Assembly (NCBI GenBank): GCA_020444165.1
Contig: JAHLLK010000090.1
Coordinates: 1-18,119, forward strand
Source: Deltaproteobacteria bacterium
Lineage (GTDB): Bacteria; Desulfobacterota; Desulfarculia; Desulfarculales; Desulfarculaceae
Length of the DNA stretch: 18,119 nucleotides
Direction: 5' to 3'
The notes under the pieces are model-generated. The model saw only the letters and a program-made list of their open reading frames with translations, was not told the origin of the DNA and did not search any database. Shown here in pieces: positions 1 to 18,119 of the stretch; the first letter of the stretch is position 1; each line of letters begins with the position of its first letter. Both the position numbers and the translations under genes were made by a program.

Positions 1-5
1 TCGCG

Positions 6-162
6 GTGAAACATGATTACGGCAGGCAATGGCCGATGCGGGCCAAGGATGGCCCACCAAATTGCAGGCTTCAAAAAGCTTGCAATTTGTGATGGTTGGC
101 AAAATCGCGTTTTTGCCAAGCCGACATTGCACGGGGCAGGATGCCCCGTGCAATGGTCTCAA
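6..162 (+). repeat. Multi-hairpin dispersed repeat, copy 1
   Basis: A chain of four inverted repeats shares order and sequence with 13499-13692. Stem 1 is GGGCCA/TGGCCC (40-45 with 50-55, loop AGGA). Stem 2 is AAATTGCAGGCTT with AAGCTTGCAATTT (59-88). Stem 3 is TTGGCAAAA with TTTTGCCAA (96-104 with 111-119). Stem 4 is ATTGCACGGGGC with GCCCCGTGCAAT (126-137 with 143-154). Similarity to copy 3 starts at GTGAAACATG (6) and ends near 162, so both boundaries are defined by comparison. It lies about 100 bases past the end of the first chemotaxis gene and encodes no protein. Whether it acts as DNA or RNA is unknown. Confidence 0.85.
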
Positions 163-10656: not shown

Positions 10657-11154
10657 TCAGTCCCCCGCCTCCTTTAAGGCCTGCTCCTTGGATATGCCAT
10701 ACTCGCCCACCGCCACGAAGAAATCCTGCCCGGGAACTCGCATGACGTAGGTCACCTTTTGGGAGGGGGCCTTCTCACCCAGCTTGGGCCACCAATACTC
10801 CACCCAACCATGTCCCGGCTGCCCGGTGGCAATGGCTTGGAATTCAGCCGCGAACATGTTGCCCTTCACGTCCTTCACCGCCATGAAATTCTTCCCCACC
10901 AGCTTGGGGTTGGGATGGGCCAACATTTTGCATTGCAGGTCCTGCACAAAAGCGTAGGGTTCCTTGGCCCATTGGCTGTTGGGGTCGTTGATTTCGGCCA
11001 GACCGGCCTGGCCCTTTTCGGCCAGCATCTTGGCCGCGGCCTCGGTTTTGGCCTTCACCTCTTTGGCCGTGGCCTGGGCCGAAGCCATTTGGGGCAGGGC
11101 GCCCAGGTAGAGGGCCAGGAGTCCCGCGGTCAGCCAGATCGCCAATTTTTTCAT
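10657..11154 (-). CDS. Secreted single-Cache protein 1
   Basis: 165 residues: a signal peptide (about 1-26, ending ASA-QA) and one small-molecule-binding Cache domain of the sCache_2 type, with no membrane anchor or signalling domain. Motifs are EPYAFV near 65, AHPNPKLVGKNF near 79, DVKGNMF, GQPGHGWVEYWWPKLGEK near 111 and YVMRVPGQDFFVAVGEY. It is the most divergent of the four paralogs: DLQCKM replaces DL(K/Q)GN in three of them and FFVAVGEYG replaces LLVGVGEYD near the end, where Cache ligands are often held. GAGGAGGTAA lies upstream of this ATG, and the ATG 66 bases further upstream has no signal peptide. It is the copy nearest the chemotaxis gene (203 bases). Confidence 0.9.
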   Translation of the reverse strand: MKKLAIWLTAGLLALYLGALPQMASAQATAKEVKAKTEAAAKMLAEKGQAGLAEINDPNSQWAKEPYAFVQDLQCKMLAHPNPKLVGKNFMAVKDVKGNMFAAEFQAIATGQPGHGWVEYWWPKLGEKAPSQKVTYVMRVPGQDFFVAVGEYGISKEQALKEAGD

Positions 11155-11380
11155 GCTGCTTACCTCCTCTTGTTCCCGAAAGTCACCATGCCTCCGGCCT
11201 TGGTTTGGCCGGAGACCCACGACATTTGGTAGGAGGGGCGTCGTCGCCCGGGCAGGCCTCCTGTGATCTCCTGATAAGGTCGGCTCCGCAAAGCTGCCGG
11301 AGTCCCCCCGGACCCTCTACTCAAATCTAACAGTTACGGCCGGGTCATTTCCCCGGAAAAAAATATTTATTAGACAAGTT
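11155..11380 (-). other. Leader and upstream region of Cache gene 1
   Basis: No gene was found. On the minus strand the leader holds a strong hairpin CTCCGGCC/GGCCGGAG (11192-11214) just before the ribosome-binding site and a second, GGGCG-loop-CGCCC (11236-11249). An AT-rich stretch at 11355-11375 could carry the promoter, but no good -35/-10 pair like those of the other Cache genes was found. The same stretch gives the T-rich tail of the Cache gene 2 terminator. Confidence 0.4.
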
Positions 11381-11413
11381 GCCTTCCCCGGCCGGGAGCC
11401 GGCCGGGGAAGGC
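11381..11413 (-). terminator. Terminator of Cache gene 2, now displaced
   Basis: A perfect 15-base stem GCCTTCCCCGGCCGG (11381-11395 with 11399-11413, loop GAG) is followed on the minus strand by a T-rich stretch. Its core is shared with the hairpins after Cache genes 3 and 4. It lies 212 bases past the stop codon because copy 2 of the hairpin repeat sits between; without that insert the gap would be 14 bases. Confidence 0.75.
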
Positions 11414-11427
11414 AGGGGCTTTGCCGT

Positions 11428-11629
11428 CTAGCAGGCTGTTGAAAAACAGCCTGTTAGGCGCGCCAGGGACCACCCCAAACAAGCTACAGCTTGTTTGGGG
11501 ACCCCGGGGATGGCGCGCCAAATTGCGCGGCTTTGAAAAAGCAAGCAATTTGGAAAACTTGACAAAACCACGCTTTTGTCAAGTTTGGTTGAAAAAGGCC
11601 ATGGAGGGACTTTTTCAACATCCTGCTAG
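11428..11629. mobile_element. MITE-like element carrying hairpin repeat copy 2
   Basis: CTAG at 11428-11431 and 11626-11629 flanks a 194-base element whose ends are inverted repeats, CAGGCTGTTGAAAAA on the left and its complement with one change on the right. Inside are a 9-base GAAA-loop hairpin (11432-11453), GGCGCGCCA/TGGCGCGCC (11457-11465 with 11511-11519) enclosing a 13-base hairpin (11473-11500), AAATTGC/GCAATTT (11520-11551) and AAACTTGACAAAA with its complement (11555-11586, loop CCACGC). The core GGATGGCGCGCCAAATTGC matches copy 3 in 18 of 19 bases. No transposase is encoded, so it would have moved with one supplied elsewhere. CTAG duplication is known for some IS5-family members; the family here is not established. 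Confidence 0.8.
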
Positions 11630-12123
11630 TCGCCGGCCTCCTTCAGGGCCTGGTCTTTGGAGATGTCATACTCGCCCACCCCCACCAGGAGATCCTGGCC
11701 AGGCACGCGGATGATGTAGGTGACCTTTTGGGAGGGAGACTTCTCGCCCAGCTTGGGCCACCAGTACTCCACCCAGCCGTGACCGGGCTGGCCGGTGGCG
11801 ATGGCCTGGAACTCGGCGCAGAACATGTTGCCCTTCACGTCCTTCAGGGCCAAAAAGTTCTTGCCGACCAGGCTGGCTTTGGGATGGGCCATCATGTTGC
11901 CCTTGAGATCGTGCACGAACACATAGGGCTCCTGGGCCCACCGGCTATTGGGATCGCTGATCTCGGCCAGGCCGGCCGGGCCTTTTTCCGAGAGCATCTT
12001 GGCCGCGGCCTGGGCCTTCTCCTTTATTTGGCTGGGAGTGGCCTTGTCGGCGGCCAGACAGGGAACCGCGACCAGGGTGAGCATGAGTCCGACCAGGGCG
12101 AGCCACACAACGCCTTTTTTCAT
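11626..12123 (-). CDS. Secreted single-Cache protein 2
   Basis: 165 residues with a signal peptide (about 1-25, PCLAA-DK) and one sCache_2-type domain. Motifs: EPYVFVHDLKGN (65-76), AHPKASLVGKNF, the GQPGHGWVEYWWPKLGEK block and RVPGQDLLVGVGEYD. Cys replaces Pro or Ala before AEFQAI. AGGAGGT lies 6 bases before the ATG at 12123. Its TAG stop codon coincides with the CTAG duplicated by the mobile element, so the insertion left the protein intact but moved its terminator. The leader is long (about 384 bases). The role is presumed periplasmic ligand binding; the ligand is unknown. Confidence 0.9.
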   Translation of the reverse strand: MKKGVVWLALVGLMLTLVAVPCLAADKATPSQIKEKAQAAAKMLSEKGPAGLAEISDPNSRWAQEPYVFVHDLKGNMMAHPKASLVGKNFLALKDVKGNMFCAEFQAIATGQPGHGWVEYWWPKLGEKSPSQKVTYIIRVPGQDLLVGVGEYDISKDQALKEAGD

Positions 12124-12349
12124 GAGAACCTCCTGTTGCACTGGGTACGTGATCTTCCTGCCGGCGAGGCCGGCGGGAAACCATTTCACCAGGGGGGCGG
12201 CATGGCTCTGACGCAGGAGGACCGGCGAGCCGGGGACCGACCCCGGCTCCCCGCCGCGCGAGCCGCCTCAACCGAGTCCGGCCACGGCGGGGGCTGGCCA
12301 CGAGCCGGGACGGCCCGGGTCGGCCGGGAGCCTCCAAAAATAAATTTGG

Positions 12350-12380
12350 AAAAAAACAATTCCCACCCGGCTCAGCCGGG
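12350..12380 (-). promoter_or_regulatory. Attenuator-like hairpin and T-run in the Cache gene 2 leader
   Basis: CCCGGC (12366-12371) pairs with GCCGGG (12375-12380), and T7 (12350-12356) follows nine bases later on the minus strand. The distance is longer than in a classical terminator, so a premature-stop role is possible but weakly supported. The leaders of Cache genes 3 and 4 do not have it. Confidence 0.3.
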
Positions 12381-12513
12381 GGGGGCGGTGGCGAGGGAGC
12401 CGGGCTCCTCCGCCACGGGGCAAACCGCATCCCCCTTGGAACCGTGCCCGGAGCCCAGGCTGGCAAGCGTGGCAGGCTGCCGGCCGACGCTCCGGAGCGT
12501 TCACGATTGCCCC

Positions 12514-12542
12514 ACTATAGCAGCCAATTAATATTTTCGGAA
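12514..12542 (-). promoter_or_regulatory. Promoter of Cache gene 2
   Basis: TTCCGA (12537-12542), a 17-base spacer and TATAGT (12514-12519) on the minus strand. The same pattern and spacing occur upstream of Cache genes 3 and 4. The start of transcription should be near 12507. Confidence 0.55.
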
Positions 12543-12626
12543 TGATATTTCTTTAATGAAAATATGCTTTCCGGAATAGTAATCAATCATTACTTGTCGG
12601 GCGCTTGCCCCCTCAGGGACGGTTCC

Positions 12627-12665
12627 GCCTTCCCGGCCGGGCCCGGGAGCCCCGGCCGGGAAGGC
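12627..12665 (-). terminator. Terminator-like hairpin after Cache gene 3
   Basis: A perfect 15-base stem GCCTTCCCGGCCGGG (12627-12641 with 12651-12665) with a 9-base loop, 17 bases past the stop codon. No T-run follows. The position and CCTTCCCGGC core match the hairpins after Cache genes 2 and 4. Confidence 0.6.
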
Positions 12666-12682
12666 CGCCAAGCCCCGGCCGG

Positions 12683-13180
12683 CTAATCCCCGGCCTCCTG
12701 GCTGGCCTGCGCCTTGGAGATATCGTATTCACCCGCGCCCACCAGGAGGTCCTGACCCGGCACCCGCATGATGTAGGTGACCTTCTGGGAAGGGATCTTC
12801 TCGCCGATCTTGGGCCACCAATATTCCACCCAGCCATGGCCCGGCTGGCCGATGGCGATGGCCTGGAACTCAGCGGGGAACATATTGCCCTTGACGTCTT
12901 TCAAACCCAGGAAGTTCTTCCCGACCAGTTTCGAGTTGGGATGGGCGACCGCGTTGCCCTGCAGGTCGTACACGAAAACGTACGGCTCCTGGGCCCAGGT
13001 GCTCTGGGGATCATTGATCTCGGCCAGGCCGGTCGGGCCCTTTTCCGCTAGCATCTGGGCCGCGGCTTGAGCCTTTTCCTTCAACTGGGTGGCGGTGGCC
13101 TTGGCCGCCGCCCAGCCGCTACCCGTCTGCCAGCTCAGGATCAGTGCCGCTGCCGCCAAGCAGATCGCCCATTTCTTCAT
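12683..13180 (-). CDS. Secreted single-Cache protein 3
   Basis: 165 residues with a signal peptide (MKKWAICLAAAALILS ... GWAAA-K) and one sCache_2-type domain. EPYVFVYDLQGN, AHPNSKLVGKNFLGLKDV, GQPGHGWVEYWWPKIGEK and RVPGQDLLVGAGEYD are seen. The signal peptide start MKKWAICLA and the leader are shared with protein 4, marking these two as the closest pair. GGGAG lies upstream of this ATG; the in-frame ATG 15 bases before it is less well placed. The gene is an independent unit with its own promoter (13356-13384) and terminator-like hairpin. Confidence 0.9.
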   Translation of the reverse strand: MKKWAICLAAAALILSWQTGSGWAAAKATATQLKEKAQAAAQMLAEKGPTGLAEINDPQSTWAQEPYVFVYDLQGNAVAHPNSKLVGKNFLGLKDVKGNMFPAEFQAIAIGQPGHGWVEYWWPKIGEKIPSQKVTYIMRVPGQDLLVGAGEYDISKAQASQEAGD

Positions 13181-13498
13181 GCTTCTCGCTCCCATGGCTT
13201 TGGTGTTGAAGGGCAGGTTTCGAGACCGCCGGAGGGGGCCCGCTCCGCCGGGGGACCGGAAGCCGGGCCACCAACCCGGCCTCCCCGGGAGAAAGGGGCG
13301 CGGCCGGGGTCCTGGACCAGGGCGTCCGGCGCCTCAAACCGCGTTAGAGTGCTGTATCATAGCTGAAATGTAGCTACATTAGAACCAAATTTCTGAAAGC
13401 GACTATTTATTCATGAATAGGCGACTAAATTTCCCCTAAATTGAGGCCATTGCATGGTGAAACACATAAATCATGTTGATATTGTATCAAAACTGGCT
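13181..13498 (-). other. Leader, promoter and upstream region of Cache gene 3
   Basis: No gene was found. A leader of about 169 GC-rich bases runs from the promoter to the ATG. Upstream, 13385-13498 is AT-rich, with CATTGCATGG at 13447 (identical to a stem-4 arm of repeat copy 3), and an inverted repeat AATCATGTT/AACATGATT (about 13470-13511) that overlaps the start of copy 3. Confidence 0.5.
13356..13384 (-). promoter_or_regulatory. Promoter of Cache gene 3 with palindrome in the spacer
   Basis: TTCTAA (13379-13384), a 17-base spacer and TATGAT (13356-13361) on the minus strand. The perfect palindrome AATGTAGCTACATT (13367-13380) fills most of the spacer and would suit a regulator. The stretch ATTTCAGYTAT around the -10 box is shared with Cache gene 4. 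Confidence 0.6.
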
Positions 13499-13692
13499 GT
13501 GAAACATGATTACGGCAGGCAATGGCCGCTGCGGGCCAAGGATGGCCCGCCAAATTGCAAGCTTCAAAAAGCTTGCAATTTGTGAGGCTTGGCAAAACCC
13601 GGGCCCCCGGCAAGCTCTGCTTGCTGGGGTGGAGTCACGTTTTTGCCAAGCCGACATTGCATGGGGCAGGACGCCCCGTGCAATGCTCTCAA
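13499..13692 (+). repeat. Multi-hairpin dispersed repeat, copy 3
   Basis: Nearly identical to copy 1 apart from a 37-base addition. Stem 1 is GCGGGCCA/TGGCCCGC (13531-13550). Stem 2 is CAAATTGCAAGCTT with its perfect complement (13551-13582, loop CAAA). Stem 3 is GGCTTGGCAAAA with TTTTGCCAAGCC (13586-13597 with 13641-13652). Stem 4 is ATTGCATGGGGC with GCCCCGTGCAAT (13656-13684). The loop of stem 3 holds an additional 11-base hairpin, CCCCGGCAAGC/GCTTGCTGGGG (13605-13629), absent from copy 1. It lies between the end of Cache gene 4 and the promoter of Cache gene 3. Confidence 0.9.
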
Positions 13693-13874
13693 ATTGAGCC
13701 GGTCCCCCTGGCGGCCTTGGGGAGCCGGGCCCGGCGAAGCGGGCCGTTGGCGCGGGCCCCCTGGGAGCAGGGAATTTAGCCGGCGGCAAGGTAGTTGGGG
13801 GGCGGGGTGCTTTTGGGTGACGGCGGGCAGGCGTGGCGGCCGGCGAATACCGCCCGCCCAAGGGACTGTCCCGA
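13693..13874. other. Intergenic stretch with no recognised gene
   Basis: A GC-rich run between repeat copy 3 and the hairpin after Cache gene 4. Open frames exist on both strands but lack a ribosome-binding site and coding character. I see no promoter or repeat of note. Confidence 0.4.
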
Positions 13875-13910
13875 GCCTTCCCGGCGGGACGCGTGGCCAG
13901 CCGGGAAGGC
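13875..13910 (-). terminator. Terminator-like hairpin after Cache gene 4
   Basis: GCCTTCCCGGC (13875-13885) pairs with GCCGGGAAGGC (13900-13910), loop 14 bases, 16 bases past the stop codon. No T-run follows. It matches the hairpins after Cache genes 2 and 3. Confidence 0.6.
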
Positions 13911-13926
13911 CTGGGGGGAATCGCGT

Positions 13927-14424
13927 TTAGTCGCCGGCTTCCTGCAGGGCTTGTTCCTTGGAGATGTCGTACTCACCCACGCACACGATAAGGTCCTGGC
14001 CAGGGACCCGCGCCACGTAGGTGACCTTTTGGGAAGGGGCCTTCTCGCCCAGCTTGGGCCACCAGTACTCCACCCAGCCGTGGCCCGGCTGACCCAGGCC
14101 GATGGCCTGGAACTCGGCGGGGAACATGTTGCCCTTGACGTCCTTCAGGGCCAGGAAGTTCTTCCCCACCAGCTTGGGGTTGGGATGCGCCACCACGTTT
14201 CCCTTGAGGTCGTAGACGAAAACGTACGGCTCCTGGGCCCAGGAACTCTTGGCGTCATTGATCTCGGCCAGGCCGGCCTGGCCTTTTTCCGCCAGCATCT
14301 TGGCGGCCGCAGTGGCCTTTTCCTTCAACTGGGTGGCGGTCGCCTTATCCGCGGCCAGCCCGTCGCCAACCAGCGAGGCCAGGATAAATCCGGCAATTGC
14401 CAAACAAATCGCCCACTTCTTCAT
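13927..14424 (-). CDS. Secreted single-Cache protein 4
   Basis: 165 residues: a signal peptide (MKKWAICLAIAGFILA ... GLAA-DK, about 1-25) and one sCache_2-type domain. EPYVFVYDLKGN (65-76), AHPNPKLVGKNFLALKDV (79-96), GQPGHGWVEYWWPKLGEK (111-128) and RVPGQDLIVCVGEYD (139-153) can be seen. A Cys (148) in the last strand is unique to this copy. GGGAGAGAG precedes the ATG. It is the first gene of the minus-strand series and is divergent from the DUF1848 gene. Like its paralogs it lacks any anchor or output domain, so it must act through a partner. Confidence 0.9.
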   Translation of the reverse strand: MKKWAICLAIAGFILASLVGDGLAADKATATQLKEKATAAAKMLAEKGQAGLAEINDAKSSWAQEPYVFVYDLKGNVVAHPNPKLVGKNFLALKDVKGNMFPAEFQAIGLGQPGHGWVEYWWPKLGEKAPSQKVTYVARVPGQDLIVCVGEYDISKEQALQEAGD

Positions 14425-14598
14425 GCTTCTCTCTCCCGTCACAGATGTTTGATGGGGCAGGCTCCAAGGTCGCTGGCAGGGGCAGGCGCCGTCGGTAAAC
14501 AGGTTGGCAGAGGCCTCACCCGGTTTCTCCCGACGAAAAGGTGGGCGTCCGGCTACCCCACAAGGGCGCCAGACGCCACCGGTTACGCTAGACTGGGC

Positions 14599-17995: not shown

Positions 17996-18010
17996 GTGTC
18001 CCAATTAGAG

Positions 18011-18119
18011 ACTGTTGCACAAGGCTCCATGCCTTGTGCAACGATCGGCTTGGCAAAAGCGTGGTTTTGCCAAGCCTCACGAATAACAAACCTTTCAGGT
18101 TTGTTATTCGGCGGGCCAT
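18011..18119 (-). repeat. Multi-hairpin dispersed repeat, copy 4 (cut by window end)
   Basis: Opposite orientation to the other copies. Read on the minus strand: the right arm of stem 1 (ATGGCCCGC, 18111-18119), stem 2 CGAATAACAAACC with its perfect complement (18080-18110), stem 3 GGCTTGGCAAAA/TTTTGCCAAGCC (18047-18076, loop CCACGC), stem 4 TTGCACAAGGC with its perfect complement (18015-18041). Linkers GTGAGGCTTGGC and the end of stem 3 match copy 3, while stem 2 is entirely different in sequence yet still pairs. The rest of stem 1 lies beyond the window. Confidence 0.85.

Follow-up and report, generated by a model that had tools for sequence, protein, structure and literature searches.

The small RNAs CsrB/CsrC and RsmY/RsmZ carry hairpins whose loops read CAGGA(U/A/C)G or CANGGANG. 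In the available parts of the literature, the Rsm site is published as CANGGANG (PMC6849547), and the CsrB repeat is given as CAGGA(U/A/C)G in hairpin loops, with 22 GGA in CsrB and a GGA in the loop of 51 of 55 SELEX ligands (PMC7652899). CsrA sites are usually paired, according to the accessible text of a further source (PMC4383904), and very stable hairpins are described as possibly disadvantageous for such sites in the corresponding part of a review (PMC7652899). REP/BIME and REPIN-RAYT systems are intergenic dispersed palindromes present in many copies, and the MITEs of the IS1182 family are short and multi-copy elements. IS1272, a member of the IS1182 family in staphylococci, targets hairpins such as terminators and, as the available portions of the reports describe it, deletes the target hairpin sequence without making a duplication (PMC4923244, PMC5678879).

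The hairpin-chain repeat described here shares features with each of these systems. In each copy, two loops are those of CsrB and RsmY hairpins, but the repeat is mobile, dispersed and known from DNA alone, whereas CsrB/CsrC and RsmY/RsmZ are small RNAs from their own genes; its stems are also longer than those of most SELEX ligands in the source available. Like REP/BIME and REPIN-RAYT it consists of dispersed intergenic palindromes, but it has target duplications and transposon-type ends. In Dethiosulfatarculus, its type B copies have the same ends and targets as broken 1.03-kb IS1182-family elements, which likens it to the MITEs of this family, but a conserved multi-hairpin core is present, and this core is also found between two other kinds of end; unlike the situation in IS1272, the hairpin is found on both sides. 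The repeat, ~150-260 bp long, is a non-autonomous mobile element and comprises five hairpins (H0-H1-H2-H3-H4); the best explanation of its H1 and H4 loops, to which we assign a probability of about 0.5, is that CsrA is their ligand. The match of these two loops to the CsrA/RsmA site is what is new here.

The window, i.e., the whole stretch of 18,119 nucleotides that was analysed, contains four copies, of which the first and the last are truncated by the window ends. Copy 1 (1..160, plus strand) is of type A, with its left end lost at the window start, and comprises H1 (38-58), H2 (58-89), H3 (94-122) and H4 (125-155), the latter with the loop CA-GGA-TG. Copy 2 (11428..11629, plus strand) is of type B, with the ends CTAGCAGGCTGTTGAAAAA / TTTTTCAACATCCTGCTAG; its H4 (11588..11619) has the loop CC-ATGGAG-GG, and an additional hairpin is situated inside its H1. 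Copy 3 (13443..13690, plus strand) is a complete type A element, GAGGCCATTGCATGG ... CAATGCTCTC, with five hairpins and an additional nested hairpin in H3, and a flank comparison revealed the target duplications AAATT on its left (13438..13442) and right (13691..13695). Its H1 (13531..13550) and H4 (13655..13685) have the loops CC-AAGGAT-GG (CANGGANG) and GC-AGGAC-GC (CAGGACG), respectively. Copy 4 (18008..18119, minus strand) has a type A end and is composed of the terminal GAG/CTC, H4 (18014..18042, loop GC-ATGGA-GC), H3 (18047..18076, GGCTTGGCAAAA/TTTTGCCAAGCC), H2 (18080..18110) and 9 nt of H1, where the window end cuts it; R1, a covariance model of H1-H3, matches it at 18047-18119 on the minus strand with 65.5 bits. 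The original prediction had placed this copy at 18011..18119, where the feature is indeed present, but its true start is earlier, as the terminal GAG occupies 18008-18010.

The letter-level statements of that prediction were all correct, and the stem changes on both arms are real. The H2 of copy 4 (CGAATAACAAACC...) is wholly different from that of copy 3 (CAAATTGCAAGCTT...) and still pairs perfectly, H4 differs between copies 4 and 3 by GG/CC against AA/TT, and H3 of copy 2 is the variant TTGACAAAA/TTTTGTCAA. As single-stranded DNA, the four copies fold with z-scores from -7.4 to -10.5 relative to dinucleotide shuffles, and none of the 200 shuffles of each copy was as stable. The additional hairpin within the H1 loop of copy 2 (11457-11519), roughly CACCCC...GGGGACCCCG, is an optional feature that occurs in different genera and was also observed in L029, L033, L041, L047, L051, L052 and L053.

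A loop-plus-stem pattern of stem 3, run over a collection of 84,980 species, gave 32 loci, with the chain present in 31 of them (L022 being cut by a contig end). The chain genomes are six: two Desulfarculus MAGs, Dethiosulfatarculus sandiegensis, Desulfocarbo indianensis, a Deltaproteobacteria MAG and a Proteobacteria MAG. As had been proposed for the repeat, a covariance model was built and searched in relatives, and a large family was recovered: with E <= 0.01 and the best 150 candidates per genome, R1 gave 417 matches in the six genomes, possibly including some overlapping opposite-strand matches. The numbers ranged from 15 to 133 per genome (81 in Dethiosulfatarculus, 15 in Desulfocarbo, and 101, 133, 67 and 20 in the other four), and the element is thus strongly amplified in some genomes. 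Of 297 genomes drawn from the phylum that includes Dethiosulfatarculus, at least 12 have R1 matches at E <= 1e-4, a minimum set by stricter filters and the best 15 candidates per genome, with which weak carriers were possibly overlooked. The remaining stem-3 locus, in a Spirochaetes record (L045), was rejected as a chance match, being without the chain in a genome where R1 finds nothing, and R1 matched none of the 296 genomes sampled from the phylum of that genome (best 15 candidates per genome, E <= 1e-4). Among viral contigs, 21 loci fit the loose stem-3 pattern, with the chain in none of the flanks examined, and the pattern gave no match in plasmids.

The family, which the original prediction did not recognise among the known REP, ERIC or BIME elements, is not RAYT-dependent, and its chain matches no Rfam family at gathering score. 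PF01797, the Y1 (RAYT) transposase expected in the host of a REPIN/RAYT system, was found in 10 of 15 carriers and not in G002, G005, G006, G021 and G287. With Rfam 15, the gathering-level matches were a tRNA only in the window, and a cobalamin riboswitch and a tRNA, both outside the chains, in nine related loci; RT-4 scored 26 bits on the L089 chain, against a cut-off of 73.5. A survey of the openly accessible literature, mostly at the level of listed records, on CsrA with MITE or REP, on Desulfarculus/Dethiosulfatarculus repeats and on IS1182 with terminators yielded no description of the family.

The copies are transposable elements that move as DNA, as is evident from their target duplications and, in Dethiosulfatarculus, from their IS1182-family ends; the terminal inverted repeats and target duplications by which MITEs are defined are both present. 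Type A ends (GAGGCCGCTGCACGG ... CTCTC) delimit window copies 1, 3 and 4, and among the 22 copies readable at both ends, out of 45 matches submitted, 17 have an exact 5-bp target duplication and 21 have one with at most one mismatch. Type C copies have the ends TACCAA ... TTGGTA and a short H2, mostly closed by a GNAA loop; identical 3-mers (TTA, TAA, TCA) flank 10 of 12, the remaining 8 of the 20 loci submitted having an unreadable end. Such 3-mer targets resemble those of IS5/IS1031. Type B ends in Dethiosulfatarculus read AGGCTGTTGACAAA / AGCTTGCTGACAAA, and in 8 of 32 rows their flanks have a common run of 13-29 nt, mostly a host hairpin (29 nt in L031 and 25 nt in L048); in the other 24 rows the runs are at most 11 nt, some of these rows having altered hairpin copies and some having ends that were merely guessed. 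Two elements of ~1.03 kb in the same species (L217, L218) combine type B ends with pieces of an IS1182-family transposase, which match NF033551 with E values of 3.7e-36, 2.6e-21 and 1.7e-21, each below the whole-protein cut-off since they are fragmentary. The hairpin AACGGAGGCTTAAAAGCCTCCG occurs on both sides of L217 as a duplication, the second copy having one change. In their letters, the type B ends in Dethiosulfatarculus are those of a broken IS1182-family element, and IS630 (TA target), once a candidate for type B ends, was dropped when this partner was found. A type B partner was not found in genomes other than Dethiosulfatarculus, and a search by end pattern in G021 gave no autonomous type A partner; PF01609 is absent from G021, G003, G004 and G005 and present in G123.

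The transposon ends fold into H0 and H4, and the hairpins between them, H1-H3, form a core that is retained with at least three kinds of end, since types A, B and C all enclose it. Reduced elements with 5-bp duplications were found in G021, consisting of H4 alone (L232, L233), H0 alone (L227) or H0-H1-H4 (L230), and a fifth (L229) has no 5-bp duplication. Therefore, the ends alone can be enough for an element to move, and the core is not required. The GGA loops, moreover, are unnecessary for moving, because L227 has the duplication ACTTT and is without GGA. Even without CsrA, one structured core between three kinds of end is an unusual bacterial case of end swapping. A second repeat of ~190 bp (L111-L129, in G201 and G287) has the type B end TAGCAGGCTGCTGAAAAA without the hairpin chain, with an inner GGCGTAC...GTACGCC, and was present in most of the loci that were fetched around lone ends.

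The original prediction had taken the paired changes as a sign of selection on structure. Such changes extend far beyond the four window copies: when 23 copies are aligned with MAFFT, pairing is found in 96.3% of the cells and both sides have changed in 10 of the 31 pairs. A structure-fitted alignment of 58 distinct copies, which is biased towards the model and contains two opposite-strand matches of copies already included, gives 95.5% and 30 of the 31 pairs, respectively. None of 500 shuffles, which do not preserve relatedness, attained these four values, and one of 500 attained the further-pair-type count of the MAFFT alignment; structures shifted by 1-3 columns pair just 23-53%. However, paired change alone is no proof of selection on RNA, because template switching also repairs palindromes and is expected to produce changes on both arms.

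The both-arm changes would thus be accounted for if the chain acted at the DNA level, with transposase or replication proteins recognising single-stranded hairpins and template-switch correction at replication keeping the stems perfect. We consider this alternative rather unlikely, although several observations agree with it: the ends are palindromic, some Dethiosulfatarculus copies are inserted beside duplicated hairpins, the IS1182-family partner has identical ends and a target of the same type, and IS1272 of this family targets hairpins, according to the accessible parts of the reports (PMC4923244, PMC5678879). Against it, the duplications of the H0-only and H4-only elements, and the type B ends of the chain-less repeat, indicate that the core is unneeded to move. 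Nor would template switching explain a fixed GGA beside free N positions in unpaired loops, or the opposed GA/GA mismatches of H2, which a loose pattern found in 99 of 158 copies, compared with 25 copies with the complementary TC/TC. Opposed GA/GA could form sheared G-A pairs on the GGA strand only.

The original prediction overlooked the strand-specific signal, which is carried by the GGA of the H1 and H4 loops and not by the stems. The H1 and H4 loops read CANGGANG / CAGGANG, with the N positions free, and the loops in between (H2 and H3) do not. Among the hairpins that parsed in 158 copies, 130 of 137 H1 and 117 of 128 H4 have GGA in the apical loop or at most 3 nt from it, compared with 2 of 95 H2 and 18 of 128 H3; the search model included H1, and so is biased towards GGA in that hairpin, but did not include H4. 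The counts of the reverse motif TCC in the same sets are 3, 37, 1 and 17 for H1, H4, H2 and H3, respectively, the H4 figure reflecting GTCC arms. To obtain these 158 copies, 18 of type C were added to 158 primary copies chosen from 262 matches (176 in all), and 18 H1-insert copies were subtracted; overlapping opposite-strand matches, repeated loci, cut copies (window copy 4 and L022) and some weaker matches had been dropped. The parser missed most H4 hairpins of G021 (1 of 11 parsed), in which AGGAC or AGGAT is seen on folding. Across 50 distinct H1 hairpins, the entropies of the columns C-A-N-G-G-A-N-G are 0.14, 0.40, 1.48, 0.28, 0.24, 0.38, 1.63 and 0.14; C, A, G, G, A and G are nearly fixed, and the two N positions are the most variable columns of the loop. 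The H4 tip is retained on unrelated arms across types A, B and C, with a weaker GGA in G123 (6 of 10) and G151 (3 of 5). In terms of the several GGA consensus hairpin loops that mark a CsrA-sequestering RNA, each copy has two (H1 and H4). In one locus (L104, G151:C41), both GGA loops are flipped to the opposite strand and the H3 loop is not.

The sampled copies are mostly intergenic. For the 115 of 158 copies with genes on both sides, as called by a simple purpose-made gene finder, no orientation bias relative to the neighbouring genes was observed: the upstream gene is co-oriented in 61 (54 against) and the downstream gene in 57 (58 against). Therefore, nothing in read-through transcription points to selection by the host for the GGA strand. 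Of 30 cases in Dethiosulfatarculus, 22 have a downstream gene that runs antisense to this strand (p = 0.016). The lack of an orientation bias would also suit recently amplified selfish elements with no function beyond spreading, whose loops are alike by descent, as would the near-identical scores of the G021 copies, the intact target duplications and the broken hairpins of lower-scoring copies. We regard such an origin as improbable, as GGA was kept while the arms, the ends and the H2 and H3 loops diverged, and the N positions within the very same loop vary most. That the chain is a module for transcript ends or stability (a barrier, an insulator or 3' end protection), with GGA loops for another factor, is more improbable still: the intergenic location and the duplicated terminator-like hairpins that flank some Dethiosulfatarculus copies would fit, but overall the copies are not placed preferentially 3' of co-oriented genes.

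Binding of CsrA to the H1 and H4 loops, the reading preferred here, infers a role as RNA from the loops together with the co-occurrence of csrA. Taking the carrier, csrA and hfq counts to refer to the same 297 genomes, since the handles recur, csrA (PF02599) was found in 142 of the sampled genomes, comprising 11 of 12 carriers and 131 of the 285 others (p = 0.002, a value that ignores kinship and completeness). No such excess was found for hfq (PF17209), which is present in 75 of the 297 (2 of 12 carriers and 73 of 285 others, p = 0.74). Among the 15 carriers examined, 13 have csrA, and none was found in G005 and G123, both of which are many-contig genomes.

In the proposed mechanism, the GGA strand would be transcribed via read-through or from an own promoter, and the resulting RNA would bind the dimeric regulator CsrA through its putative sites in H1 and H4. 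The family would then be a dispersed, transposable set of CsrA sites, serving either as a decoy or as a CsrA mark inside host transcripts, and its dispersed copies would act much as CsrB or RsmY RNAs do from a single gene. Some Desulfarculus-like bacteria may thus carry scattered decoys for this global regulator. More specifically, and only tentatively, we propose a transposable CsrA decoy, an RNA module that swaps its transposon ends and keeps its two CsrA hairpins, with copy number and insertion sites possibly tuning or parasitising the regulator. If CsrA binds the loops, a self-spreading element would titrate or steer a global regulator, and transposon dynamics would be tied to post-transcriptional control.

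The window also harbors four tandem paralogous genes of ~170-187 aa on the minus strand (10657-14442), with 77-83% similarity to the reference across 300 nt, and the gaps among them contain copies 2 and 3. The minus-strand gene adjoining copy 2 terminates exactly on the TAG of the type B end (11626-11628). Type B ends start with TAG or TAA in copy 2 and in several copies of G201, G287 and G002, and the ends of the element may supply stop codons to adjacent genes. In addition, several upstream genes, as called by the simple gene finder, stop 26-28 nt before H1.
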